From Nanobdellota archaeon (lineage in GTDB: Archaea > Nanobdellota > Nanobdellia > Woesearchaeales > JAGLGH01): a DNA stretch of 8,666 nucleotides. The position numbers and the translations under genes were made by a program. This document shows, one piece after another, positions 1 to 8,666 of the stretch. Every line of letters begins with the position of its first letter. Positions within the stretch are counted from its first letter, which is position 1. The DNA lies in NCBI GenBank assembly GCA_023144115.1, contig JAGLGH010000123.1, forward strand, positions 1 to 8,666. The letters run 5' to 3'. The notes under the pieces were generated by a model that saw only the letters and a program-made list of their open reading frames with translations, had not been told where the DNA came from and did not search any database.

Positions 1-40
1 GAAAGCGCAGCGTCCCCAAGCGACTGAAAGGAGCGCAGAG
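1..40 (+). repeat. Partial cassette-joining site (site 0), right part only
   Basis: The window opens inside a joining site. The visible part GAAAGCGCAGCGTCCCC (1-17) recurs almost exactly in site 7 (4518-4534) and in diverged form in site 11, and it ends in GCGCAGAGT like sites 1 and 12. The palindromic core and left half lie outside the window. Everything to its right up to 704 is cassette 1. Confidence 0.6.
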
Positions 41-90
41 TTTTTATATTTGAGAAATAAAATAAATTTCTAACGAAGTGAGTCAATAAT

Positions 91-104
91 TAAGAAAAAG
101 AAAA
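91..104 (-). terminator. Possible T-rich archaeal-type terminator of gene 1
   Basis: Read on the - strand, the bases just after the stop codon are TTTTCTTTTTCTT, a T-rich stretch of the kind that can terminate archaeal transcription without a hairpin. It is also the inner cassette arm, so both roles are possible. Confidence 0.35.
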
Positions 105-107
105 GCC

Positions 108-620
108 CTACATCCACTTACCCAAAAAATGTTGTTCTACTCCTTGATGAGTTCTTGTCCCAAGAGGTTGTGCACCACTTAATGAACAATATTTTTCTCC
201 CAATATTTGTCTTGAAGTATCATTAGGCATGTTTTTTGATGGTGCAGTATATCCAAAAAAGAAATCACAATTTTTTTTGGTTTCTTCTTGAGCTGTCATA
301 AGCAATATTTTTAATGCAGTTGGATTTCCAGTTGATGCTAATCTATGAACACCTTTTATTCTTAGACTTGGAGAATACCCTTCAATTAATTTATCTAAAC
401 CAAATTGATGGTGAACATCTGGATATTGAGTATAATCACCAACAGATACAAAACCTAAAGGAGTTTCGCCATCAAATACTCCAAAGTGTTCGCATAAAGA
501 ATCAAATTGCCAAAAAACCATTTGTTCTTCAGAAGAAAATTCAGAAAATTGTTTTCTTCTCAAATCATACATTGGTCTTTGTAATTTTCTATCTGCACCA
601 TAAAAATGTTCGAGAATCAT
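108..620 (-). CDS. Uncharacterised protein, 170 aa
   Basis: I do not recognise this family with confidence. It is a soluble-looking protein of 170 residues with no signal peptide or membrane segment. The stretch around residues 45-60 (FGVFDGETPLGFVSVGD) looks like the central strands of a GNAT acetyltransferase, and the later TGNPTALKILLMTAQEE is helical, but the acetyl-CoA loop is not clear, so a GNAT-like fold is only a guess. I place the start at ATG 618-620 rather than the ATG at 624-626 because the TATA box TTTATATA then sits at -23 to -30, the spacing seen across the window. The stop codon overlaps the end of the inner cassette arm (93-109). It is the only gene of cassette 1. Confidence 0.75.
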   Translation of the reverse strand: MILEHFYGADRKLQRPMYDLRRKQFSEFSSEEQMVFWQFDSLCEHFGVFDGETPLGFVSVGDYTQYPDVHHQFGLDKLIEGYSPSLRIKGVHRLASTGNPTALKILLMTAQEETKKNCDFFFGYTAPSKNMPNDTSRQILGEKYCSLSGAQPLGTRTHQGVEQHFLGKWM

Positions 621-642
621 AACCATCGTAACTATAATGTAG

Positions 643-650
643 TATATAAA
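643..650 (-). promoter_or_regulatory. TATA box of gene 1
   Basis: TTTATATA on the - strand, 23 to 30 nt upstream of the ATG at 620, fitting a leaderless archaeal transcript. Relative to the upstream ATG (626) it would lie too close, which favours the downstream start. Confidence 0.65.
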
Positions 651-691
651 ACTATCGAGGGCTTTTCTTTTTCTCTTTTCTCAAATATAAA

Positions 692-780
692 AATTGTATT
701 TAACCCTTGTTAAATGAGGGTGAGCGAAGCGAAAGGCTGCAAGCGGTCCCAGAGGATTTGCTGAAAGCAAACCGCAGAGT
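692..780 (+). repeat. Cassette-joining site 1
   Basis: AATTG (692-696) is followed by the core ATTTAAC-CCTT-GTTAAAT (698-715), a perfect 7-bp palindrome around the 4-nt spacer. Then come small hairpins: GCT-GCA-AGC (736-744) and TTTGC-TGAAA-GCAAA (757-771), the latter extended by GG/CC around a bulged A756. The site ends GCAGAGT. The last hairpin and end are shared with site 12. Confidence 0.8.
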
Positions 781-796
781 AATATTTTAGTGTGCG

Positions 797-1294
797 TTAC
801 TTAAGAATTCTGTAATGTAATTGTATTGTATTTTTTGAAAGTTGTTTTGTTTCTAATAATTCTAATTTTGTTTCAAATTCATTGTCTGCAAAAAGTTTGA
901 TCCCTTTTCCAAATAGAAAAGGTTCAACATCTAAGTATATTTCATCAACTAAACCTTTTTGCATAAATGATGAATTTAGCATTCCTCCTCCTGCGACAAG
1001 AATTTCTGAAAACCCTTTTTCTTCTAATAACTTAATTGCTTGTTCAGGAGAATTTACAAAATTAGAATTATTATTTTCTTTGTTTGATACTATGACTGTA
1101 AATGGATTTCCAATTTGTTGAAACTCATCATCTTGGTTCATAATTTCAAAAGTTTTTCTTCCTATAACTAAATTGCCAATTTTTTTAGCAATATTGGAAA
1201 AACTGTCCCATTCTTCATCGGACCAAGGAGTTTCATCATTTTCTTTAGCAATATATCCATTTGCAGTTATTGCCATGTATAAAACAACTTTCAT
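797..1294 (-). CDS. RibD C-terminal / dihydrofolate reductase-family protein
   Basis: At 165 aa this matches the usual length of stand-alone RibD_C (DHFR-like fold) proteins, annotated as 'dihydrofolate reductase family protein'. Visible family features are the N-terminal strand VVLYMAITANGYIA (residues 3-16), the GNLVIGRKTFE segment (40-50), a central TVIVSNK strand (66-72), the glycine-rich nucleotide-binding turn AGGG (101-104) followed by a helix, and the C-terminal part with DEIYLDVEPFLFGKGIKLF. The family binds NAD(P)H and reduces pteridine or pyrimidine-type substrates; the substrate of this copy cannot be read from the sequence. It is cytosolic. The start at ATG 1294 is supported by TTTAATAA at -23 to -30. 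It need not be involved in folate metabolism or trimethoprim resistance. Confidence 0.9.
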   Translation of the reverse strand: MKVVLYMAITANGYIAKENDETPWSDEEWDSFSNIAKKIGNLVIGRKTFEIMNQDDEFQQIGNPFTVIVSNKENNNSNFVNSPEQAIKLLEEKGFSEILVAGGGMLNSSFMQKGLVDEIYLDVEPFLFGKGIKLFADNEFETKLELLETKQLSKNTIQLHYRILK

Positions 1295-1316
1295 ACTTTA
1301 TTACAATTACTTGATA

Positions 1317-1324
1317 TTATTAAA
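1317..1324 (-). promoter_or_regulatory. TATA box of gene 2
   Basis: TTTAATAA on the - strand at -23 to -30 from ATG 1294; the same variant occurs before gene 8. Confidence 0.55.
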
Positions 1325-1351
1325 GATTTGCATTGAGCACACTAAAATATT

Positions 1352-1434
1352 ATTTCATTTAATTCCTGTTAGTTTCGTCTGACCAACGGGAAGACCTAAA
1401 ATTTAGTGCAACGTTCCGAAGGAAAATTTTAGAG
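1352..1434 (+). repeat. Cassette-joining site 2
   Basis: ATTTC (1352-1356), then the core ATTTAAT-TCCT-GTTAGTT (1357-1374), whose two halves are not complementary to each other. A long hairpin follows: outer stem CTAAAATTT (1396-1404) with AAATTTTAG (1424-1432), inner stem TTCC-GAA-GGAA (1414-1424). The 42 bases from 1396 differ from site 6 at one position. The site ends in AGAGTT. Confidence 0.78.
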
Positions 1435-1448
1435 TTTTTGAGTCAGCC

Positions 1449-1484
1449 GTACATCTAGAACGAAGTTCAATAAAATAAAAGAAT
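1449..1484 (+). repeat. Block shared by cassettes 3 and 8 (copy 1)
   Basis: Thirty-six bases starting GTACATC and ending AAATAAAAGAAT match 4551-4586 at 33 positions. Both copies lie between the left outer arm and the 3' end of unrelated genes. The block is non-coding in both places. Confidence 0.7.
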
Positions 1485-1497
1485 GAAGAGCAAGAAT

Positions 1498-1710
1498 TTA
1501 GTTAATTAATGATTCTAAACCTTTAATGGCTGCGAAACATATTGCTGAAGTATATGCTGCATGATAGATTGAAAATAATGTAGCTTGAACATACATTTTT
1601 TTTGATGAATAATCTCTTGTTTCTACAGAGTTTCTTTCTGAAGCAGTTACTATTCCCATAGTAGGCAAATAAAAATCCTTTGCTTTAAATTCTAAAGGTT
1701 TAGTTTCCAT
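1498..1710 (-). CDS. Uncharacterised small protein, 70 aa
   Basis: I do not recognise this protein. It has a charged N-terminal part (METKPLEFKAKDFYLPTMG), a Ser/Thr-rich middle with basic residues, and a C-terminal helix-forming stretch from about residue 42 (ATLFSIYHAAYTSAICFAAIKG). That stretch is rich in Ala, Ile and Tyr and could be amphipathic or membrane-associated. No catalytic motif is visible. Evidence that it is real: an intact frame, a good TATA box (TTTATATA) at -25 to -32 from ATG 1710, and its position as the sole gene between the arms of cassette 3, with the inner arm reaching the stop codon as in other cassettes. Confidence 0.65.
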   Translation of the reverse strand: METKPLEFKAKDFYLPTMGIVTASERNSVETRDYSSKKMYVQATLFSIYHAAYTSAICFAAIKGLESLIN

Positions 1711-1734
1711 ATTCTATTTGTAACTCAGCAGGAG

Positions 1735-1742
1735 TATATAAA
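1735..1742 (-). promoter_or_regulatory. TATA box of gene 3
   Basis: TTTATATA on the - strand at -25 to -32 from ATG 1710, preceded by AAAGA as a plausible BRE-like purine stretch. Confidence 0.65.
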
Positions 1743-1788
1743 TCTTTCGATTGAATTCTTACCTAACTGCTAAATAGGCTGACTCAAA

Positions 1789-1866
1789 AATTGCAACTAA
1801 TTTCTGTTAGTTGGGGAGACTGCAAGTCGACCGACTGGAAAAATCTTTGATTTAGTAAGGACAGTT
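1789..1866 (+). repeat. Cassette-joining site 3
   Basis: AATTGC (1789-1794), core AACTAAT-TTCT-GTTAGTT (1795-1812), then hairpin GACT-GCA-AGTC (1818-1828). The site ends ACAGTT. The hairpin has the same loop and a compensatory A-T for G-C change relative to site 4. Confidence 0.78.
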
Positions 1867-1914
1867 TTTAAGTTTCTTCGAACCGAAGGTGAGACAAATT
1901 TTAAGCGCCCGTTT

Positions 1915-2289
1915 TTAAGAATTAAGCCAATCTATTGCTTCATGTTCTGAAGAAAACGATTTTGTTACAAAAGTATTATCAGGATTATCTTGATTAACAG
2001 TTGGTTTATCACTTATAAAAGCAAACTTTTCAACTTTAATTTTGTTATAAATTGAAATTATATTTTCATTTCTCCAACTGATTAAACCATCACTTAAATT
2101 ATATGAAAATTTTCTCATATCTACTATAATTTTCAAGCTATATTGTTTTTGAACTACATCAATAAATTTAAGTGCTTCTTCTTTAAAATCTGTATCAGTA
2201 AAGTTTGCTGTATTTTCTTTCCAACAAAGAGTTAGAATATCATTATCTTTAGAAACTAACATATATTGATCATCGATAAATTGTTCCAT
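1915..2289 (-). CDS. SpoIIAA-like / STAS-type domain protein
   Basis: A 124-aa soluble protein with the look of the SpoIIAA-like/STAS family. It has alternating beta strands in the N-terminal third (ILTLCWKENTANFTDTDF), a helix (FKEEALKFIDVVQKQYSL), then a strand with conserved acidic turn (KIIVDMRKFSYN, with DMRKF in the place of the usual D(L/M)R(K/G)F), a second helix with KVEKFAFISDKP, and the typical end (FSSEHEAIDWL). Members are small anti-anti-sigma-like or lipid-binding-like domains of mostly unknown role. A frame extension to ATG 2328 exists, but it adds residues unlike the family and swallows the TATA box. With ATG 2287-2289 the box TATTTAAA lies at -23 to -30, so I take this start. 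Confidence 0.72.
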   Translation of the reverse strand: MEQFIDDQYMLVSKDNDILTLCWKENTANFTDTDFKEEALKFIDVVQKQYSLKIIVDMRKFSYNLSDGLISWRNENIISIYNKIKVEKFAFISDKPTVNQDNPDNTFVTKSFSSEHEAIDWLNS

Positions 2290-2311
2290 AGAAAATATAA
2301 TCCTAATAATC

Positions 2312-2319
2312 TTTAAATA
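2312..2319 (-). promoter_or_regulatory. TATA box of gene 4
   Basis: TATTTAAA on the - strand at -23 to -30 from ATG 2289. It decides the start codon, since it would lie inside the coding region if translation began at 2328. Confidence 0.55.
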
Positions 2320-2360
2320 GGTTTCCATTAAGGGGGCGTTTTTTGTTTTAGAAACTTAAA

Positions 2361-2420
2361 AATTGCAACTAATCGCTGTTATGTGGGGAGGCTGCAAGCC
2401 GACCGACCGAAGGGACAGTT
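2361..2420 (+). repeat. Cassette-joining site 4
   Basis: AATTGC (2361-2366), core AACTAAT-CGCT-GTTATGT (2367-2384), whose halves do not pair with each other. Hairpin GGCT-GCA-AGCC (2390-2400) follows, and the site ends GGGACAGTT. It is the shortest and cleanest GC-rich version of the site. Confidence 0.8.
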
Positions 2421-2432
2421 CAGAAAAAGTCC

Positions 2433-2762
2433 TTAATAGATTAAATCATCTGGATCAAATTTAGGATTAGTAACGACAACTAATTCAATTGTTTCTTCAA
2501 CATCTTGAATGTTGTGATACTCATTCCTTGGAATCGAAAAAACATCTCCTGCTTCAATTGTGAAAATTTTATCTCCAACTTTAAGTCTGGCTTTTCCTTT
2601 CACAATGAAGTAAACTTCTTCCATTTTTTGATGCTTGTGGGGCTTAGAACTACCAGTTATAACAGAATATGACACACTTAAATTATCAGAATTATATAAT
2701 TCTTGCAATTTGCCACAAGCATCTTCTATTGGTTTGATGTTTTTTCGATTTACTATCTTCAT
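2433..2762 (-). CDS. Small cupin-2 domain protein
   Basis: A 109-aa single-domain cupin. Cupin motif 1 is seen as H42-K-H44-(x3)-E48 followed by VYFIVKG, and motif 2 as GDVFSIPRNEYHN with the fourth ligand H83. H42, H44, E48 and H83 make a complete metal site, so the barrel should bind a divalent metal such as Fe, Mn or Zn. Family members range from isomerases and dioxygenases to sugar-binding proteins, and this sequence does not say which. It is cytosolic, without signal peptide. The start at ATG 2762 has TTTATATA at -23 to -30. Confidence 0.9.
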   Translation of the reverse strand: MKIVNRKNIKPIEDACGKLQELYNSDNLSVSYSVITGSSKPHKHQKMEEVYFIVKGKARLKVGDKIFTIEAGDVFSIPRNEYHNIQDVEETIELVVVTNPKFDPDDLIY

Positions 2763-2784
2763 ATAAGTTACTAATCCTACATGA

Positions 2785-2792
2785 TATATAAA
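2785..2792 (-). promoter_or_regulatory. TATA box of gene 5
   Basis: TTTATATA on the - strand at -23 to -30 from ATG 2762. Confidence 0.65.
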
Positions 2793-2810
2793 GTTGTTGG
2801 ACTTTTTCTG

Positions 2811-2892
2811 AATTGCACATAACCCTTGTTATGTCTGGTGAGCCGTAGGCGAAAGGCTGTAAGCCGGCCCGACGACCAAAGGGAGGAGAGTT
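2811..2892 (+). repeat. Cassette-joining site 5
   Basis: AATTGC (2811-2816), core ACATAAC-CCTT-GTTATGT (2817-2834), perfectly palindromic. Hairpins: GCC-GTA-GGC (about 2842-2850) and GGCT-GTA-AGCC (2855-2865). It ends in a GC-rich tail and AGAGTT. Confidence 0.8.
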
Positions 2893-2899
2893 TCTAAAT

Positions 2900-2920
2900 C
2901 TCGTCCGAGCCAAAGACGAG
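2900..2920 (+). repeat. Side hairpin inside cassette 6
   Basis: CTCGTC (2900-2905) pairs perfectly with GACGAG (2915-2920) around a 9-nt loop. It lies between outer and inner left arms, the same place where cassettes 4 and 13 have a smaller hairpin. Confidence 0.55.
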
Positions 2921-2969
2921 ACTAACATTAAAGGGGCTTTTTTATTTAAATTCTTTTGAGGTTTTTCTT

Positions 2970-3740
2970 TTACTTTTTATTTGTAACAATAATTAAATCA
3001 TCTTTAAAATCTAAACAATCGTTATGCTGAAATTTCTTTATTTTACTTAAGAATTTCTTTGCATCTGAATCTGAAGGATAAATGTTAGTATTATGAATAA
3101 ATCTATAAAAAGATTTTAATTCAAAAATTTTTTTTGTTGACAAAATATCACCAACATACATTCTCATTTTAAACCTTTTTACTTTTACATCAAACCCTTT
3201 TTGCTTATAATAATATATCATATATTTAGAATAATTAAATTTTGGATAAACTTGCTTTATCATTACATTATAATGGTCGCTTTCTTCTGGCAAAGTTAAA
3301 ATCATTACTTTTCCATCTTTTTTTATCATATTCATTAATTTGTCTAAATGTTTGTTAAAACCTTTTTCATTAAAAGCCCAATAATAATTTGTGTGTATTG
3401 TGTAGGCCGCATCATATTTTTTTTTTGGTTCAAATAAATCTAGAGTTTTTACATAACAATTTTTAATATCATTTTCTGAAAATAAAAAAGCTTCTCCATT
3501 AGCTAATGCAGCTTTATCTGGCTCTAATAAATCACATCCATACTTGCTTTCAATTCTATCCAAAATTTGCTTTGTAGTATGTCCTTCTCCACATCCTATA
3601 TCTATTATTTCTTTATGATCAATTAATTCATTAGAAATATATTTTACAATTTTGAACCAATCTTCCATAAAGGTTCTTATATATATATTTTCATAAACAT
3701 CTGCAAAGCGTTTCTCTCCCCAAAAATGCCATTCTGTCAT
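2970..3740 (-). CDS. Class I SAM-dependent methyltransferase
   Basis: A 256-aa cytosolic protein with a Rossmann-type methyltransferase core. Motif I is IIDIGCGEG (residues 45-53), the glycine-rich loop that holds S-adenosylmethionine. YGCDLLEPDKAAL follows as the acidic strand that binds the ribose, then a strand with AAYTIHTNYYWAF in the motif IV region and KKDGKVMILTLP, typical of the post-motif strand. The C-terminal third (from about residue 170) is Lys/Tyr-rich and probably forms the substrate-binding cap. The acceptor, which could be a small molecule, tRNA or protein, cannot be told. The start at ATG 3740 has TTAATATA at -25 to -32. The stop codon meets the inner arm of the cassette. 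Confidence 0.88.
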   Translation of the reverse strand: MTEWHFWGEKRFADVYENIYIRTFMEDWFKIVKYISNELIDHKEIIDIGCGEGHTTKQILDRIESKYGCDLLEPDKAALANGEAFLFSENDIKNCYVKTLDLFEPKKKYDAAYTIHTNYYWAFNEKGFNKHLDKLMNMIKKDGKVMILTLPEESDHYNVMIKQVYPKFNYSKYMIYYYKQKGFDVKVKRFKMRMYVGDILSTKKIFELKSFYRFIHNTNIYPSDSDAKKFLSKIKKFQHNDCLDFKDDLIIVTNKK

Positions 3741-3764
3741 AAATTGATATATTTAATTAAGACA

Positions 3765-3772
3765 TATATTAA
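3765..3772 (-). promoter_or_regulatory. TATA box of gene 6
   Basis: TTAATATA on the - strand at -25 to -32 from ATG 3740. A second A/T run nearer the gene (about 3747-3754) is too close to serve. Confidence 0.5.
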
Positions 3773-3844
3773 TCTTTCTAAACATTTCAAAGAAAAAACC
3801 TCAATTTAATTTTAAAGCCCCGTTTTTATTTTTAGAGACCTAGA

Positions 3845-3920
3845 AATTAGACATAATCCTTGTTATATTCCCCGAAGGGCTAAAATTTAGTGCAATGTTC
3901 CGAAGGAAAATTTTAGAGTT
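3845..3920 (+). repeat. Cassette-joining site 6
   Basis: AATTAG, core ACATAAT-CCTT-GTTATAT (3851-3868), hairpin CCC-GAA-GGG (3871-3879). Then comes the long hairpin with outer stem CTAAAATTT (3880-3888) and AAATTTTAG (3908-3916) and inner TTCC-GAA-GGAA (3898-3908). The long hairpin is shared with site 2 (41 of 42 bases). The site ends AGAGTT. Confidence 0.78.
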
Positions 3921-3967
3921 TGTCCCCGAACGTTTTTTAATAACAAAAAAGTGCCAACCATTGATTT

Positions 3968-4396
3968 TTATTTGGAATGTATGGTTTGATTATATTTCCA
4001 ATCATTAAGCATTATAGTAAATTGGCGTTGATTATCATCTCTTTGAAGCGTTATAGAAAAACAGCCATCACATTCTAATTCTTTTACTTCAAGAACTGTT
4101 GTAGGATAACTTAAATGAGCAGTAGCTATTTCAACAGCCGTTTTTTGATTTTCAGTTAATTCGTGGGTTCTTAGTTTTTCAAAACTCTTACCGGTCCACA
4201 GTGTACATTTTTTCTCTGGACCTTCATGCTGACGATCTGTATAATCATAAAATGTTAAGCTACGAAGAAGCCATGAATTTTCGCATTCTTCAAAATTGGT
4301 TATTTTGGCATTTGAATATCCAACTATCCCGGAGATTGAACCAACGATAAAAACCAGTAAAAAAATTAAAACCCTTTTTTTAATATTATTTGTCAT
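3968..4396 (-). CDS. Membrane-anchored extracytoplasmic protein with Cys pairs
   Basis: A 142-aa protein with a basic N-terminus and one hydrophobic segment (about residues 9-27, VLIFLLVFIVGSISGIVGY), a signal anchor that should place the rest outside the cytoplasm. After it comes NFEEC (34-38) and, 26 residues on, C64-TLWTGKSFE. This recalls the 'FEEC...PxxC..DGK.F' module of many small archaeal and bacterial exported proteins, though the middle differs. The C-terminal part has ECDGC (C109, C112) in a strand-rich region (SITLQRDDNQRQFTIML). The four cysteines could form two disulfides. A frame extension to GTG 4450 runs into the cassette arm. ATG 4394-4396 has TTTAAATA at -24 to -31 and is preferred. 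Confidence 0.7.
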   Translation of the reverse strand: MTNNIKKRVLIFLLVFIVGSISGIVGYSNAKITNFEECENSWLLRSLTFYDYTDRQHEGPEKKCTLWTGKSFEKLRTHELTENQKTAVEIATAHLSYPTTVLEVKELECDGCFSITLQRDDNQRQFTIMLNDWKYNQTIHSK

Positions 4397-4419
4397 AAAT
4401 TTAGTATTATTAATTAAAG

Positions 4420-4427
4420 TATTTAAA
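4420..4427 (-). promoter_or_regulatory. TATA box of gene 7
   Basis: TTTAAATA on the - strand at -24 to -31 from ATG 4396. It argues against the upstream GTG at 4450. Confidence 0.55.
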
Positions 4428-4473
4428 TGATTGTTTTTAATGGCTGGCACTTTTCTTTTTTAGTGAGGAGGGA

Positions 4474-4541
4474 AATTGAATATAATCCCTGTTATGTCTC
4501 CCGACGACTGAAAGGGTGAAAGCGCAGCGTCCCCTTGAGTT
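4474..4541 (+). repeat. Cassette-joining site 7
   Basis: AATTGA, core ATATAAT-CCCT-GTTATGT (4480-4497), halves not fully complementary. A GC-rich segment follows, with GACG (4503-4506) pairing CGTC (4528-4531). It ends CCCCTTGAGTT as in site 11. GAAAGCGCAGCGTCCCC matches the start of the window. Confidence 0.75.
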
Positions 4542-4550
4542 GAAAAAAGC

Positions 4551-4586
4551 GTACATCGAGAACGAAGGTCAATCAAATAAAAGAAT
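4551..4586 (+). repeat. Block shared by cassettes 3 and 8 (copy 2)
   Basis: It matches 1449-1484 at 33 of 36 positions and sits in the same place between the outer and inner left arms. Confidence 0.7.
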
Positions 4587-4590
4587 TGAG

Positions 4591-4602
4591 ACAAAAACAA
4601 AA
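4591..4602 (-). terminator. Possible T-rich terminator of gene 8
   Basis: On the - strand the bases after the stop read TTTTGTTTTTGT, a candidate archaeal terminator. It coincides with the inner arm of the cassette, so its conservation may have another cause. Confidence 0.3.
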
Positions 4603-4603
4603 C

Positions 4604-5089
4604 TTACTCAAATTCATCCCAACTAACTTCTCTGCCAGGATATGCAACTTTCTTAAATGGCCATTTATCTTGAATCCATTTTTTAACAGAAGAAAAAAGA
4701 ATTTCATCTAATTCATTTGCTACTTCACTTTGCCTAACCCACATCATAATTATTGCATCATAATTTGGATTGTCAGAAGGATAAATATACACGCAACCAA
4801 GACATTCAGTTTCATCCAAATTCATAACCGTAAAGGCAAAGGAAGATCTTTTTTGAAATTCTTTTTGATGCCATCCAAGATCAATCAAATCTTGTTCATA
4901 AGGTAAATCTTTTGTTGGCCATTTATGATTAGGTCCAAAAGGTTTCGTTTTCTGTAAATGTTCAATGCTGGTCATAACAGCATCATAATCTTTCTTAACA
5001 TCATTTACAGTAATCATTCTCAAACGAAACCTGTCAGTTTCTAATACTTCAGGAATTTTAAAATCTGTTGGGATGAATTTCTTTGTCAT
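4604..5089 (-). CDS. GNAT family N-acetyltransferase
   Basis: A 161-aa protein that I recognise as a GNAT-family subfamily with a characteristic layout. It starts with LETDRFRLRMITVNDVKKDYDAVMTSIEHL (about residues 16-45), followed by GPNHKWPTKDLPYEQDLIDLGWHQKEF and the central strands SFAFTVMNLDETECLGCVYIYPSDNPNYDA. The C-terminal segment is MMWVRQSEVANELDEILFSSVKKWI, ending in WPFKKVAYPGREVSWDEFE. These proteins transfer an acetyl group from acetyl-CoA to an amine; the acceptor is unknown. The length is normal for the group, so the gene looks intact. It is cytosolic. ATG 5089 has TTTAATAA at -25 to -32. The stop codon overlaps the inner arm by one base. Confidence 0.87.
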   Translation of the reverse strand: MTKKFIPTDFKIPEVLETDRFRLRMITVNDVKKDYDAVMTSIEHLQKTKPFGPNHKWPTKDLPYEQDLIDLGWHQKEFQKRSSFAFTVMNLDETECLGCVYIYPSDNPNYDAIIMMWVRQSEVANELDEILFSSVKKWIQDKWPFKKVAYPGREVSWDEFE

Positions 5090-5113
5090 ATTAATAATGA
5101 TAATTATTGAGTA

Positions 5114-5121
5114 TTATTAAA
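5114..5121 (-). promoter_or_regulatory. TATA box of gene 8
   Basis: TTTAATAA on the - strand at -25 to -32 from ATG 5089. It abuts the inner right arm (5121-5135). Confidence 0.5.
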
Positions 5122-5157
5122 GTTTTGTTTTTGTCCTTCCACATTCTAGCTTTTTTC

Positions 5158-5217
5158 AATTTCGTATAACCCTTATTATACGTTTTTTCTGCAAGAAAAA
5201 AAGCCGAAGGCTCAGTT
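5158..5217 (+). repeat. Cassette-joining site 8
   Basis: AATTTC, core GTATAAC-CCTT-ATTATAC (5164-5181), the only site with A instead of G after the spacer. Hairpins TTTTTTCT-GCA-AGAAAAAA (5183-5201) and AGCC-GAA-GGCT (5202-5212) follow, then CAGTT. The part from 5175 is almost identical to sites 9 and 10. Confidence 0.82.
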
Positions 5218-5228
5218 GAATATTTGCA

Positions 5229-5600
5229 CTATTCAATGAACAATTTTACTGAAGGATGTAATTCAAAACTTTTCATTTCTTTCTTTGATAGCCATTTGAA
5301 ATCAGAATGATCGGGACTTAAAGTTAAATCTCCAGAAAGTATTTTTGGAGTGAAATAATGAAACAACAAGTCATGTTTTTTATCGTGATATTCTTCAGTT
5401 CTGATTTCAATTCCTGGTTCGATATCATAAGAAGTTTCTTCTTTTGTCTCCCTAATGGCTGCTTCTTCAGGAGTTTCTCCAGGGTCGTGTTTGCCTCCTG
5501 CAAAATCCCACATATCTGGATAACTTTTAGAATGTGAAGCTCTTTTCAAAAGAAGAAACTTACTATCTTTTTGAATTACAGATTTTGAAATTTCAATCAT
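5229..5600 (-). CDS. Nudix hydrolase
   Basis: A 123-aa single-domain Nudix protein. The Nudix box is seen at residues 36-58: G36-(x5)-E42-(x7)-R50-E51-T-K-E54-E55-T-S57. The acidic residues that bind Mg2+ are all present; the usual Gly near the end of the box is Ser57. Upstream, SKFLLLKRA and YPDMWDFAGGK are typical of the MutT-like fold that hydrolyses nucleoside diphosphates linked to another group, such as oxidised dNTPs or nucleotide sugars. The substrate is not evident. The frame extends to a TTG at 5648 inside the cassette arm, but ATG 5598-5600 has TTTTATAT at -22 to -29 and begins the family's first strand (MIEISKSVIQKD). Confidence 0.92.
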   Translation of the reverse strand: MIEISKSVIQKDSKFLLLKRASHSKSYPDMWDFAGGKHDPGETPEEAAIRETKEETSYDIEPGIEIRTEEYHDKKHDLLFHYFTPKILSGDLTLSPDHSDFKWLSKKEMKSFELHPSVKLFIE

Positions 5601-5621
5601 AATATTAGTAAAATTGTTAGA

Positions 5622-5629
5622 ATATAAAA
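5622..5629 (-). promoter_or_regulatory. TATA box of gene 9
   Basis: TTTTATAT on the - strand at -22 to -29 from ATG 5600; it supports that start over the longer frame. Confidence 0.55.
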
Positions 5630-5646
5630 GTTTTGTGCAAATATTC

Positions 5647-5706
5647 AATTTCGTATAATCCTTGTTATATGTTTTTTCTGCAAGAAAAAAAGCCGAAGGC
5701 TCAGTT
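5647..5706 (+). repeat. Cassette-joining site 9
   Basis: AATTTC, core GTATAAT-CCTT-GTTATAT (5653-5670), hairpins TTTTTTCT-GCA-AGAAAAAA (5672-5690) and AGCC-GAA-GGCT (5691-5701), then CAGTT. The right part is nearly identical to sites 8 and 10. Confidence 0.82.
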
Positions 5707-5733
5707 TAAATTTTGGCATTTGATTAGCAAACA

Positions 5734-5741
5734 TTTATATT
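5734..5741 (+). promoter_or_regulatory. TATA box of gene 10
   Basis: TTTATATT on the + strand at -23 to -30 from ATG 5764, preceded by AAACA. Confidence 0.6.
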
Positions 5742-5763
5742 AAGCCAGTTCTTTTCTTATTAT

Positions 5764-6366
5764 ATGATAAAATGGATTTTATTTGATCAAGTAAGAGTGC
5801 AAACTTATGATGTATTTAGTCGAAAGGATTTTTATTCAATCAATGGAAAACAATTTTCTGCTAAAAAATTAAAATCAATTTTTTACATCCCAGAATATCG
5901 AAAATTTAGTATTGGAGAAATTAATGAAATAGAATTGATTTCTACTTTTCTTGAAAAAAGCGATATAGATTTGGATGTAGAAGATTATATTAAAATTTTT
6001 AAGATAGGAATTGAATCAATTGAAGGAATGGCTGAAATATTAAAATTCTTATCTGAAAAGTATTTCTTGGCAACTTTAATCAATGAAGGTTATGAATGGG
6101 CTAATTACAAATTAGATGTTTCAGGTTTTAGAAAATTTTTCAAAGAAAATTTTATTTCAGGAGATTTAAAAGTTGCAAAACCTGATTTTGAGATATATCA
6201 AATTGCTTTGAATAAACTAAATGTAAAACCTGAAGAATGTATTTTCATTGATGACCAGAAAAAAAATTGTGAAGCAGCGGAAAAATTAGGAATAAAATCC
6301 ATTGTTTTTGAAAATCCAATTCAATTAAAAAAAGAACTGGCTACATTCTCAATCAACATAAATTAA
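5764..6366 (+). CDS. HAD-superfamily protein with altered motif I
   Basis: A 200-aa protein with the layout of a HAD-IA hydrolase. The N-terminal strand ends in LFD (D8, the place of the nucleophile), followed by a helical cap (about 25-95), the motif III region K139-P140 in LKVAKPDFEIYQIAL, and motif IV IFIDD (D163, D164) followed by NCEAAEKLG. Motif I reads D8-Q-V10 where phosphatases have DxD, so the usual acid/base Asp is missing. In the motif II region (ATLINEG, 103-109) the Ser/Thr before Asn is Ile. HAD members without the second Asp include haloacid dehalogenases and inactive forms, so this may be a non-phosphatase or a non-catalytic binder. The start at ATG 5764 is supported by the TATA box. 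Confidence 0.85.
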   Translation: MIKWILFDQVRVQTYDVFSRKDFYSINGKQFSAKKLKSIFYIPEYRKFSIGEINEIELISTFLEKSDIDLDVEDYIKIFKIGIESIEGMAEILKFLSEKYFLATLINEGYEWANYKLDVSGFRKFFKENFISGDLKVAKPDFEIYQIALNKLNVKPEECIFIDDQKKNCEAAEKLGIKSIVFENPIQLKKELATFSININ

Positions 6367-6377
6367 GCCAAAATTTA

Positions 6378-6437
6378 AATTGCACATAATCCTTGTTATA
6401 CGTTTTTTCTGCAAGAAAAAATGCCGAAGGCTCAGTT
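6378..6437 (+). repeat. Cassette-joining site 10
   Basis: AATTGC, core ACATAAT-CCTT-GTTATAC (6384-6401), hairpins TTTTTTCT-GCA-AGAAAAAA (6403-6421) and GCC-GAA-GGC (6423-6431), then CAGTT. It differs from sites 8 and 9 on the right side at only a few positions. Confidence 0.82.
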
Positions 6438-6533
6438 GAGTTTGAGAGGCGTTCTATTCAATGAGCAAATGCGATACATTAAGAACAAGTATCAAAGGGG
6501 ACAATTTTTAATAACTCTCAGATTAATCACAAA

Positions 6534-6545
6534 TTATATATATAT
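6534..6545 (+). promoter_or_regulatory. TATA-like A/T run upstream of gene 11
   Basis: TTATATATATAT lies 33 to 44 nt before ATG 6578, further away than in the other cassettes. This implies a transcript with a short leader of roughly a dozen bases. Confidence 0.45.
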
Positions 6546-6566
6546 CAAATACATATGTTATAATTA

Positions 6567-6572
6567 GGGTGG
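6567..6572 (+). promoter_or_regulatory. Shine-Dalgarno-like site of gene 11
   Basis: GGGTGG ends 5 nt before ATG 6578. It selects that ATG over the in-frame GTG at 6569, which would overlap it. No other gene in the window has a comparable site. Confidence 0.55.
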
Positions 6573-6577
6573 TTTTT

Positions 6578-7096
6578 ATGAAATATATATCTCTAATAGG
6601 ATTAATCTTAATGTTATTTGTATCAGGTTGTGCAAATCAAACAAATAATCAACAATCAGAACAAAATTCAAATGAGGCATTAGATAATTTTCCAACAGAG
6701 AAACTCTCTAGTGCGGAGTTAGAAGCATTAAGCTTAACTTTAAATGATGAATATAAAGCTGAAGCGATTTATCAAAAAGTTCTTGATAAATTTGGAGATA
6801 TAAGTCCATTCAATAATATTATTAATGCAGAACAAAAACATAGTGATTCACTAATACAACTTTATGAAAAATTTAACTTAAATGTACCTGAAAACGATTG
6901 GTATGATAAAGTACCAGAATATGATTCAGTACAAGAAGCCTGTGAGGCTGGTGTAGAAGCTGAAATTGAAAACATAGCATTATATGATGAATTGTTTTTA
7001 AAAGTCGACAACCAAGATATCATAATAGTATTTACATCATTAAGAGATGCTTCTAAAGATAAACATTTACCTGCTTTTCAGAGATGTGCTAAATAA
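6578..7096 (+). CDS. DUF2202 ferritin-like lipoprotein
   Basis: A 172-aa exported protein. Residues 1-17 form a lipoprotein signal peptide (basic start, hydrophobic core GLILMLFV) ending in the lipobox V-S-G-C18. A Gln/Asn-rich linker (about 19-40) leads to a helical domain from about 45 to the end with the signature of DUF2202: LTLNDEYKAEAIYQKV, then FNNIINAEQKHSDSLIQLYEKF, a linker with NDW, EAGVEAEIENIALYDEL and TSLRDASKDKHLPAFQRC. The regularly spaced Glu and His residues (AEA.Y, AEQKH, EAEIEN, DKH) are those expected for a di-metal site of the ferritin-like four-helix fold. The role of the family is unknown; metal or oxygen chemistry at the cell surface is an inference. Confidence 0.88.
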   Translation: MKYISLIGLILMLFVSGCANQTNNQQSEQNSNEALDNFPTEKLSSAELEALSLTLNDEYKAEAIYQKVLDKFGDISPFNNIINAEQKHSDSLIQLYEKFNLNVPENDWYDKVPEYDSVQEACEAGVEAEIENIALYDELFLKVDNQDIIIVFTSLRDASKDKHLPAFQRCAK

Positions 7097-7124
7097 AATA
7101 TTATTAACAGTTTAAATTATCCCC

Positions 7125-7139
7125 TTCTTTTCTTTTTTT
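7125..7139 (+). terminator. Pyrimidine/T-rich terminator candidate of gene 11
   Basis: The run TTCTTTTCTTTTTTT begins 29 nt after the stop codon of gene 11, on the coding strand, just before the right arm of the cassette. It resembles archaeal T-tract terminators. Confidence 0.45.
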
Positions 7140-7153
7140 AGCCTCTCAAACTC

Positions 7154-7218
7154 AATTGCACATAATCGCTGTTAAATGAGGGTGAGCCGAAAGCGAAAGT
7201 GCAACGTCCCCTTGAGTT
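7154..7218 (+). repeat. Cassette-joining site 11
   Basis: AATTGC, core ACATAAT-CGCT-GTTAAAT (7160-7177), halves not complementary. The following GAGGGTGAGC stretch matches site 1, and the CAACGTCCCCTTGAGTT end resembles site 7. It looks like a mosaic of site variants. Confidence 0.76.
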
Positions 7219-7239
7219 TTTAAAAGCCCCCGTAAGAAG

Positions 7240-7611
7240 TTATGCTAATTTAAAAGGTACTTCATAATCTTTTTCAGGATGAACATCTTTTCCTTTATAA
7301 TGTGTAATAATATATTCAACAGATAATGCTAGGTCTGCAGTTAAACCAAAAGGTAATATTAATCCAGTTCCAATACCTTTAACAATTTGATCAAGAGTAC
7401 TCCTTTCTTTAGGAGTATCAGTTGAAACATTATTAGCATTATCAAAGACTCCATATCTATCTGCGGAATATCCTATTAGATAATCTCTATCTCGATTCAA
7501 ATAAGAATCAGTATTCTTAACAATATGATGAAATACAAAACTAATTGGATTAAATCCTGTATAGATTCCATCTACAAAATTTTGACCTAACTTTTTTACT
7601 TTCGGATTCAT
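7240..7611 (-). CDS. Uncharacterised protein, 123 aa
   Basis: I do not recognise this family. The N-terminal half (VDGIYTGFNPISFVFHHIVKNTDSYLNRDRDYLIGYSADRYG) is rich in aromatic residues and has a His-His pair. From about residue 80 there is a hydrophobic, Gly-containing stretch (IVKGIGTGLILPFGLTADLALSVEYI) that could span or lie on a membrane, followed by a charged end (GKDVHPEKDYEVP). No signal peptide precedes it. Support for a real gene: an intact frame, CTTATATA at -24 to -31 from ATG 7611, and its place as the only gene between the arms of cassette 12. Confidence 0.65.
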   Translation of the reverse strand: MNPKVKKLGQNFVDGIYTGFNPISFVFHHIVKNTDSYLNRDRDYLIGYSADRYGVFDNANNVSTDTPKERSTLDQIVKGIGTGLILPFGLTADLALSVEYIITHYKGKDVHPEKDYEVPFKLA

Positions 7612-7634
7612 ATATTTATTAGAATTAAAAGAGG

Positions 7635-7642
7635 TATATAAG
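7635..7642 (-). promoter_or_regulatory. TATA box of gene 12
   Basis: CTTATATA on the - strand at -24 to -31 from ATG 7611. Confidence 0.6.
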
Positions 7643-7668
7643 TTTTATTGTTTTAGAGGGCTTTTAAA

Positions 7669-7720
7669 AATTTCATTTAACCTTTGTTAAATGAGGATTT
7701 GCGAAGCAAACCGCAGAGTT
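7669..7720 (+). repeat. Cassette-joining site 12
   Basis: AATTTC, core ATTTAAC-CTTT-GTTAAAT (7675-7692), perfectly palindromic. A single hairpin follows: TTTGC-GAA-GCAAA (7698-7710), extended by GG/CC around a bulged A7697. The site ends GCAGAGTT. It is the most compact site in the window. Confidence 0.82.
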
Positions 7721-7777
7721 GATAATTAGTCCGTTCAAGTGCAAAGCACCTTCGAATAAAACTATCAAAGGGCAAAA

Positions 7778-8530
7778 TTAACGTTCAAGATGTTTGATAA
7801 ACCATTCATTGGTCAGTTTAACTATTTCTTCGACATGCTCAGTAAAATCGTGATCTGCATTTTCAACGATTGCTAATTGAGATTCATCGGGCAATAACTT
7901 TATTGCATTTTCTGAATCTTCTATTGGAATACTTGTATCTTTTGTTCCTTGTATTATTAATACTGGACAAATTATATCTTGCAGTAATTTCTTTTGGTCA
8001 ACAGATTCTCTTTCTTTTAACATTTGTTTATCAATTTGATATATTTCTCTGATTGCGTTTTTTCTTGTTCTAGTAAAATATCCTTTTTCACTTAGTTCTT
8101 GAAGTTGTTCTTTAGAAAGTTTATCTTCCCATTGATATTTTACTTTATTTGTTACTGGCGACCATAAGACCATTGTCTTAATTTCTTGAGAATATGCTTT
8201 TAGCGAAACAAGGCATCCTACGCTATGCCCAAATAGTGCGATTTTTTCAAATCCTTTTGTTTTTGCAAATTCAATTGCGGATTTTAAATCATCAACCTGT
8301 TTCTCCACAGTTAACGTATCATCATCGCTTTCGCCGCATCCGCTAAAATCAAAAGCGAGAGTATTAAAGCCTGAATTGTTTAGTTTATTCGCTACGGCAT
8401 CTAATTTACCACGTTCAGATTTATCATTTGCTAAAGCATGAGATAAGATGATGATTGACTTGGATTTTAAAGATGATAAATTACCAATTAATGTTTTATT
8501 TCGAGAATTCTTAAAAGTAATTTTATCCAT
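7778..8530 (-). CDS. Alpha/beta hydrolase
   Basis: A 250-aa cytosolic alpha/beta-fold hydrolase. The catalytic triad can be read: nucleophile S103 in GHSVG (101-105), D198 in IQGTKDTSIP, and H227 in ENADHDF. The early strand SIIILSHALANDKSERG (25-41) supplies the oxyanion turn, and FDFSGCGES (60-68) is the usual segment before the nucleophile elbow, as in acyl-esterase and serine-aminopeptidase-like hydrolases. A Lys/Gln/Glu-rich cap lies between about 128 and 185. Substrate unknown; an ester or acyl-thioester is likely. The length is typical, so it appears intact. ATG 8530 has TTTATATA at -23 to -30. Confidence 0.92.
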   Translation of the reverse strand: MDKITFKNSRNKTLIGNLSSLKSKSIIILSHALANDKSERGKLDAVANKLNNSGFNTLAFDFSGCGESDDDTLTVEKQVDDLKSAIEFAKTKGFEKIALFGHSVGCLVSLKAYSQEIKTMVLWSPVTNKVKYQWEDKLSKEQLQELSEKGYFTRTRKNAIREIYQIDKQMLKERESVDQKKLLQDIICPVLIIQGTKDTSIPIEDSENAIKLLPDESQLAIVENADHDFTEHVEEIVKLTNEWFIKHLER

Positions 8531-8552
8531 ATATCTTTAAACTTCTTTGTAA

Positions 8553-8560
8553 TATATAAA
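8553..8560 (-). promoter_or_regulatory. TATA box of gene 13
   Basis: TTTATATA on the - strand at -23 to -30 from ATG 8530, lying between the gene and the inner right arm. Confidence 0.65.
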
Positions 8561-8606
8561 CTTTAAGTTAATTTTGCCCCTTCAAAAATATTAAGGACTA
8601 ATTATC

Positions 8607-8666
8607 AATTTCATTTAATCCTTGTTATATTCGTTTCCAGTTACAAAGTTCTGGAAACCTGCGTCC
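8607..8666 (+). repeat. Cassette-joining site 13 and start of cassette 14
   Basis: AATTTC, core ATTTAAT-CCTT-GTTATAT (8613-8630), then an 8-bp perfect hairpin GTTTCCAG (8633-8640) with CTGGAAAC (8651-8658). The window ends within this site, so the arm and gene of cassette 14 are not visible. Confidence 0.76.

Follow-up and report, generated by a model that had tools for sequence, protein, structure and literature searches.

The window analysed here is the whole of contig JAGLGH010000123.1 (G000:C28; 8,666 bp), which belongs to a Woesearchaeales genome of 1.72 Mb in 408 contigs with 87% completeness. It holds 13 single-gene units, which are likely to be mobile cassettes inserted and removed by a XerA-like tyrosine recombinase at an attI-like site; we put the probability of this at about 78%. 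Our best reading of the array is an integron-like cassette system of separate origin.

A pattern search of the window for the strict site element yielded 13 copies on the + strand and none on the − strand, while 300 dinucleotide shuffles contained on average 0.02 copies and at most one, both strands taken together. Each site is composed of AATT(G/T), NNNNTAA, a 6-nt spacer (mostly YNNYTG), TTANNNN, a block of at least one hairpin and AGT(T). The intervals have a mean size of 660 bp, and all 13 contain one main open reading frame (ORF), 11 on the − strand and two on the + strand. The initial annotation, made from the letters of the window, had described structured sites in one orientation, a single gene per unit and genes on both strands, and this description holds. 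Its site formula recurs in all 13 copies, except that a spacer of 6 nt (TAA-YNNYTG-TTA) fits better than the 4-nt spacer it gave. Seven of the ORFs fall into Pfam families (DHFR/RibD_C, cupin, methyltransferase, NUDIX, HAD, alpha/beta hydrolase and DUF2202) and six have no Pfam match at 1e-3. Thus the Nudix, cupin, DHFR-like, methyltransferase and HAD proteins of the proposed cargo were recovered, but the GNAT protein was not confirmed because of these six ORFs without a match. As to the separate promoters that had been claimed, a TATA-like box is located 22–44 nt 5′ of the gene in 10 of the 13 genes by a simple regular expression run without a shuffle control, and each gene seems to carry its own promoter.

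Unit ends and folded sites

A feature absent from the initial annotation is a unit-specific inverted repeat that bounds each unit. The statistics on ends and arms cover 19 loci in 18 genomes with 90 site calls and 67 intervals of 80–3,500 bp; the position weight matrix (PWM) for the site was trained on 38 sites from six loci. The repeat is about 15 bp long, can have almost any sequence and stands directly after AGT and directly before ATT, the letters AGT and ATT at its edges being imposed by the search pattern. Within the window the cognate partner was the best one in 11 of the 13 units, was tied in unit 6 and was beaten by one other end in unit 4. Over all loci, 39 of the 67 units have cognate ends with at least 12 of 16 Watson–Crick pairs, compared with 2 of 670 controls of equal freedom. 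All four pair types occur at positions 5–15 of the repeat among the 47 best units, which were chosen for having at least 10 pairs. A terminal repeat common to all copies, as would be expected of a transposon, was not seen, the end repeats varying between units.

The core was measured as a 6-nt spacer with arms of about 7–8 nt. Comparing the two core arms (NNNN) of a unit gives a mean of 3.07 complementary positions out of four, with perfect complementarity in 38 of the 67 units, whereas the arms that meet at one junction are complementary at 2.03 of four positions (perfect in 13 of 90), and other pairs within the array at 2.01. The observed within-unit arm sum exceeded that of all 10,000 within-array permutations. 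Since the arms are complementary within units and not across junctions, we conclude that the unit extends from core spacer to core spacer. The full palindrome forms only once both ends of a unit meet. A joint change of the arms from AATG/CATT to TGTG/CACA, over a distance of about 500 bp, is seen in a unit common to two orders.

The hairpin blocks were analysed for base pairing and for loop sequence. For block family T3, aligned from 12 hand-picked and trimmed sequences, 95.1% of the cells pair and 13 double changes were counted against 4.9 in shuffles, none of the 500 shuffles being as high. Among 51 non-redundant blocks (of 84), triloop hairpins with a stem of at least 4 bp had GNA loops 19 times, with 0.5 expected from mononucleotide shuffles, and the complementary TNC triloops did not occur at all; GNRA was found in one of 16 four-base loops with stems of at least 4. 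GNA triloops are very stable in single-stranded DNA. The excess of GNA and the lack of TNC therefore indicate DNA hairpins on the written strand, and such an excess on one strand suggests a single-stranded DNA form. With the recombinase as the starting point for reading the array, the GNA hairpins lie on its bottom strand, and the active strand of integron attC sites is also the bottom strand (PMC8946536). In the unpaired part of the T3 blocks (for example window 1351–1436 and 3845–3920) the motif AGTGCAACG is nearly invariant while the stem covaries; this motif is possibly a protein contact.

Recombinases, attI-like junctions and shared units

In related arrays a tyrosine recombinase gene of what we call clade A is situated just past the last array site. 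We scanned 253 kb upstream and 71 kb downstream of 39 clade-A genes with the PWM. At a score of at least 15, 18 of the 39 loci had one or more sites, and all 40 such sites were upstream on the strand of the gene, with none on the opposite strand or downstream. Lowering the score to at least 11 gave 58 sites, 54 of which had this same position and orientation; the other four were either weak or, in L147, close to attI. Nine of the 21 loci that have no site at 15 or above offer less than 420 bp of upstream sequence.

Most clade-A genes are preceded at about 130–290 nt by an attI-like junction, which consists of a unit end, TAAC and a right half such as NNNNTATATGCGAA; one lies at 58 nt. Of the 27 junctions on the stricter list, 21 have C directly after TAA, four have T and two, judged to be chance matches, have A, as compared with C in 11 of 90 array sites. 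The base at this position therefore seems to be that of attI, and exchange would take place at or to the right of TAA. When the attI regions of G133 and its relatives G210 and G221 were compared, similarity began at the core.

Clade-A genes are present in 85 of the 352 genomes of the order sample (down to E 1.6e-66; a hand count in which not each gene was placed in the tree). In a phylum sample of 371 genomes, 77 gave clade-A matches at E ≤ 1e-65, 23 of these in other orders of the class, so that the clade extends beyond the order. Genomes with a dedicated array-end recombinase often also hold a second XerA-type gene.

The only PF00589 protein of the window genome is encoded on another contig, C364, and belongs to a second group, clade B. 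Its gene has OapB and OapC, both archaeal, as neighbours and an attI-like junction about 85–106 nt upstream. Clade-B genes were detected in 23 of the 352 genomes of the order sample (E ≤ 1e-75), and 18 of these 23 loci have an attI-like junction about 70–115 nt upstream, in L286 only by way of a repeat beside attI. In the congener G001, a T3-block site, a unit whose arms and stem match perfectly, attI and the clade-B gene are found together in a single stretch. As few sites lie near clade-B genes, the link of this clade to arrays rests on attI and on G001. We infer that the recombinase on C364 is the candidate enzyme for the array of the window. That this sole tyrosine recombinase (L001) is the host XerA acting as dimer resolvase was considered and dropped in view of the attI-like junction and the clade-B relatives. 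The right half of the clade-B attI forms a long inverted repeat (TTAAGCGTA...TACGCTTAA) in several genomes (L281–L299, about 70–115 nt 5′ of the genes).

The catalytic residues R130, K155, H220, R223, H246 and Y255 are invariant in an alignment of 16 recombinase sequences, and no insertion corresponding to the additional domain specific to IntI is found in this alignment. Three clade-A proteins reached 190, 208 and 185 bits with the integron-integrase model TIGR02249 (cut-off 265), each in two stretches, and 220, 234 and 193 bits with the archaeal XerA model (cut-off 220); the clade-B protein of the window genome scored 179 bits with TIGR02249, likewise in two stretches. Clade A together with one Aenigmatarchaeota protein forms a clade (100/100). 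IntI is a clade of its own, both in the first tree (100/100, 20 rows) and in the second (100/99, 12 rows), with clades A and B outside. The initial annotation had held a bacterial integron to be unlikely, which agrees with integrases that lack the IntI domain and fall into other clades. Clade A groups with archaeal Xer rows in the first tree (95/87), while the second tree leaves the backbone open. An origin of clade A within the archaeal Xer proteins has thus support in one tree and an unresolved backbone in the other, and we therefore call clade A only XerA-like. The relatives of solved structure include IntI4 and XerA, with the Tn1549 integrase also among the matches; the predicted recombinase model had a mean predicted local distance difference test (pLDDT) value of 83.7 and a predicted template modelling (pTM) score of 0.60.

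Related genomes were searched with the site pattern, in place of the covariance model that had been proposed. It matched in 59 of 145 genomes, the window genome included, mostly as single chance-like matches. Clusters of sites were present on contigs of G098, G135, G143, G133 and G116, and with the matrix further sites were detected in these genomes and in G108. Arrays of this kind are also present in other families and orders, in two cases on single-contig chromosomes, namely G118 (1.16 Mb), where the sites are found across the contig ends, and G370 (829 kb, another order), which has two sites; this argues against contamination. The best 80 loci among the matches listed, including that of the Aenigmatarchaeota relative of clade A, contained no array but only five single weak matches in four loci, and viral contigs had no exact match to the T1 block. 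Several contigs start or stop at or near a site (the starts of G090:C19 and G140:C6, the ends of G095:C42, G116:C70 and the window), so that the array lengths given are minimum values.

Three units are shared between genomes. The NUDIX unit (unit 9) is 89% identical over 516 nt to a unit of G098, a genome of a different family; among the 352 genomes it is near-whole only in these two, with one further partial match at 68%, and its hairpin block alone is found in nine other genomes at 93–100% identity. A unit coding for a 122-aa protein is common to G098 and G389, the latter of another order (83%), and a third unit to G297 and G370, the latter again of another order (78%). All three have different neighbourhoods, and the similarity stops in or beside the core spacer. 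The initial annotation had suggested looking for the sites in related genomes, for an integrase at an array end and for gain, loss or reordering of whole cassettes in related strains; the first two were encountered, and whole units turned up in different neighbourhoods in other families and orders. As to the spacer, the NUDIX unit had at first suggested ownership by the left cassette, while attI and two other shared units fit the hairpin side instead, so that either assignment is tentative.

In G389 there are gene-less units of 76 bp in tandem (L267, G389:C9, − strand, about 2448–2620 and 1410–1490), made up of a hairpin block, AGT, a short stem with a 4-nt loop and a core arm; one more copy stands beside attI. 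Other cassettes look like such a gene-less unit with a gene inserted into its 4-nt loop. With regard to cargo in sister arrays, the unit at L044 10302–11096 has a phosphotransferase-like gene (Pfam APH), and a unit common to two congeners (93% over 588 nt) has a gene for a small protein, presumably RelE-like by its look, at L043 7356–7640 and L044 9044–9325.

The units of the window

All sites of the window are on the + strand; unit coordinates run from core spacer to core spacer and the repeats named are the inverted repeats at the unit ends. The contig starts within a site, of which the 3′ part (end of the hairpin block and AGTT) is left at 1–42 and resembles the site blocks at 4518 and 7195. 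Unit 1 (39–695), whose left core is off the contig, has repeats at 39–66 and 668–695 and an ORF without Pfam match at 108–626 (−); it is followed by site 1 (692–781, core 701–712). The RibD_C/DHFR-like ORF at 797–1294 (−) belongs to unit 2 (704–1362, repeats 778–795 and 1337–1354), and site 2 (1351–1436, core 1360–1371) has a block of family T3. Unit 3 (1363–1800, repeats 1433–1448 and 1777–1792; ORF 1498–1710, −) and unit 4 (1801–2372, repeats 1862–1877 and 2350–2365; ORF 1915–2328, −) both code for proteins without Pfam match and are followed by site 3 (1789–1866, core 1798–1809) and site 4 (2361–2420, core 2370–2381), respectively. Unit 5 (2373–2822, repeats 2416–2432 and 2799–2815) carries the cupin ORF at 2433–2762 (−) ahead of site 5 (2811–2892, core 2820–2831).

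The repeat of unit 6 (2823–3856; 2889–2902 and 3835–3848) is weak; this unit contains the methyltransferase ORF at 2970–3740 (−), and site 6 (3845–3920, core 3854–3865) again has a T3 block. In unit 7 (3857–4485) the repeat at 3930–3964 and 4437–4471 is not directly at AGTT; the ORF at 3968–4450 (−) has no Pfam match, and site 7 is at 4474–4541 (core 4483–4494). Unit 8 (4486–5169, repeats 4538–4550 and 5149–5161), with an ORF without Pfam match at 4604–5089 (−), has mismatched core arms (1/4). The next three sites, site 8 (5158–5217, core 5167–5178), site 9 (5647–5706, core 5656–5667) and site 10 (6378–6437, core 6387–6398), all have blocks of family T1. Between them lie unit 9 (5170–5658, repeats 5214–5229 and 5635–5650) with the NUDIX ORF at 5229–5648 (−) and its counterpart in G098, and unit 10 (5659–6389, repeats 5702–5717 and 6367–6382) with a HAD hydrolase ORF at 5764–6366 (+). 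The core arms of unit 11 (6390–7165, repeats 6433–6450 and 7141–7158) match at 2/4; its ORF at 6569–7096 (+) is a DUF2202 protein, and site 11 is at 7154–7218 (core 7163–7174). Unit 12 (7166–7680, repeats 7215–7252 and 7635–7672; ORF 7240–7611, −, no Pfam match) ends at site 12 (7669–7720, core 7678–7689), and unit 13 (7681–8618, repeats 7717–7732 and 8595–8610; ORF 7778–8530, −, alpha/beta hydrolase) at site 13 (8607–8666, core 8616–8627), which is cut by the contig end.

The repeat of unit 5 is one compensated base pair apart from that of a unit of G001 with another gene (L071). Units 3 and 8 have a 42-nt stretch after the end repeat in common (88%; window 1433–1498 and 4550–4591), and the stretch of unit 3 recurs in G133 (L046 9028–9093; 88% over 66 nt) ahead of different cargo. 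Whole unit ends thus seem to be reused in units 3 and 8 and in G133.

Possible mechanism and comparison with known systems

According to the mechanism that we propose, a cassette would leave as a circle in which its two arms would rejoin as the palindrome NNNNTAA-6 nt-TTANNNN, flanked by the hairpin block and the stem of about 15 bp. Recognition by the recombinase would depend mostly on the fold of this site, with the GNA-loop strand probably in single-stranded form; strand exchange would occur at or in the 6-nt spacer, and the circle would be joined to attI. Newer cassettes would therefore lie nearest the recombinase. An array junction would then be a hybrid of two cassettes, and the folded site would be whole only in the circle or with the gene looped out. 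A more far-reaching proposal, to which we give even odds, is that the use of folded single-stranded DNA for gene capture has evolved on two separate occasions: among Woesearchaeota and their relatives, with XerA-type integrases, the gene would sit in the loop of a long hairpin whose free-sequence stem and arms are kept self-complementary, probably by copying of a hairpin intermediate, and the 76-bp gene-less cassette would be the bare element.

Several observations weigh against this picture of mobile cassettes. The array of the window is not joined to a recombinase gene, the one candidate of the genome being on another contig. Twelve of the 39 clade-A loci have more than 1.3 kb of upstream sequence and no site at a PWM score of 15 or above; G118, whose sites lie past the contig end, is counted among these. 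The 23 clade-B loci have only three site matches within 1.5 kb, all at or beside attI. In 20 of the 67 units fewer than 10 of 16 positions pair in the end repeat, and 18 of the 67 have two or fewer matching arm letters, some of the poorly scoring units probably being wrong site calls. In a fourth shared unit, from the congeneric genomes G098 and G135 (93% over 588 nt), the similarity breaks off about 5 nt before the core is reached, and the spacers of the NUDIX unit are unlike at the left and equal at the right, contrary to the ownership at attI. Recombination, including circles, unit movement and enzyme activity, is here proposed from the sequences.

One could also regard the elements as transcription devices such as terminators or regulatory RNA, or as leftovers of inverted-repeat transposons, within an old and static gene order. 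There are indeed hairpins between the genes, and the hairpin block is found in nine other genomes without the NUDIX gene. The orientation of the sites, however, tracks the recombinase and not the gene strand, no Rfam match was obtained at the gathering score, the loops are GNA triloops with few GNRA tetraloops (1/16), and the pairing spans the genes and is unit-specific, so that there is no common terminal repeat for a transposase. We consider this explanation very improbable.

Both remaining explanations invoke a known recombination system. A divergent form of the canonical integron, or of the cluster of attC sites lacking an integron integrase (CALIN), i.e., IntI with attC as reported in archaea, would have the same plan of an array, an attI-like site and a tyrosine recombinase transcribed away from the array, and IntI4 is among the closest solved relatives. 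We regard it as improbable nevertheless, given the TIGR02249 scores of 190, 208 and 185 bits in two stretches against a cut-off of 265, and the separate IntI clade. Alternatively, the units may be Xer/dif modules moved by the host XerA, like the pdif modules of Acinetobacter plasmids, with the neighbouring recombinase being incidental. In favour of this, Pfam identifies a single tyrosine recombinase in the genome of the window; dif, however, is not known to include hairpin blocks or long end repeats. All sites have a single orientation, and dedicated recombinases with attI-like sites stand at the array ends, often in genomes with a second XerA-type gene, which makes the Xer/dif explanation improbable in our view, even though the core with its arms and 6-nt spacer resembles archaeal dif (11-6-11; PMC2958812). 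The complementary boxes also speak against the integron, as they do not meet at the junctions, while in attC both are within one site (PMC8946536).

We found no description of this system in the open papers searched on integrons, cassettes and Xer in Woesearchaeota, DPANN and other archaea, a scope outside which preprints and most subscription papers fall; a term search of a review of archaeal tyrosine recombinases (PMC8371274) gave neither DPANN nor cassette. If the units are moved by the recombinase, the system would be a second, independently arisen counterpart of the bacterial integron, and small-genome DPANN archaea would possess a widespread means of storing and exchanging single accessory genes with a non-integron recombinase. 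It would then allow the suitability of folded single-stranded sites for gene capture to be tested in a convergent case, may explain the contig breaks at sites and could open a route to the mobile gene pool of uncultured archaea.

Transposons of the Tn916/CTnDOT type use coupling sequences. The present system is similar in that the spacers between the arms differ from site to site, and recombining spacers therefore may not need to match; such transposons, however, are not known to have arrays or attI-anchored storage of single genes. The pdif modules also have accessory genes between sites, but their sites alternate in orientation, in contrast to 13 of 13 sites pointing one way in the window and 40 of 40 near clade-A genes (PWM ≥ 15). 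A Xer-type recombinase and inverted arms around a 6-nt spacer are shared with Xer/dif, including archaeal XerA/dif (PMC2958812), from which the system differs by apparently shorter, cassette-specific arms, an array with attI and a dedicated recombinase, the hairpin block and the long end repeat.

Closest in plan are the integrons, which are known also from archaea, there with the IntI domain and attC (Ghaly et al. 2022, PMC9668308). Common to both are mostly single-gene cassettes, one-way and structured sites with a strand bias, an attI-like site and, at one end, a tyrosine recombinase gene whose transcription leads away from the array; attI beside an integrase that is transcribed away from a one-way array is found here with clade A as well as with clade B. 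On the other hand, the recombinases lack the additional domain of IntI and belong to other clades, the complementary boxes come from opposite ends of a single cassette, so that adjacent junctions have one each, and there are a free-sequence stem of about 15 bp, hairpin blocks, own promoters and genes on both strands. The system looks mobile, and what appears new is its site design together with XerA-like recombinases: it resembles an integron in plan, but is none by the features tested.

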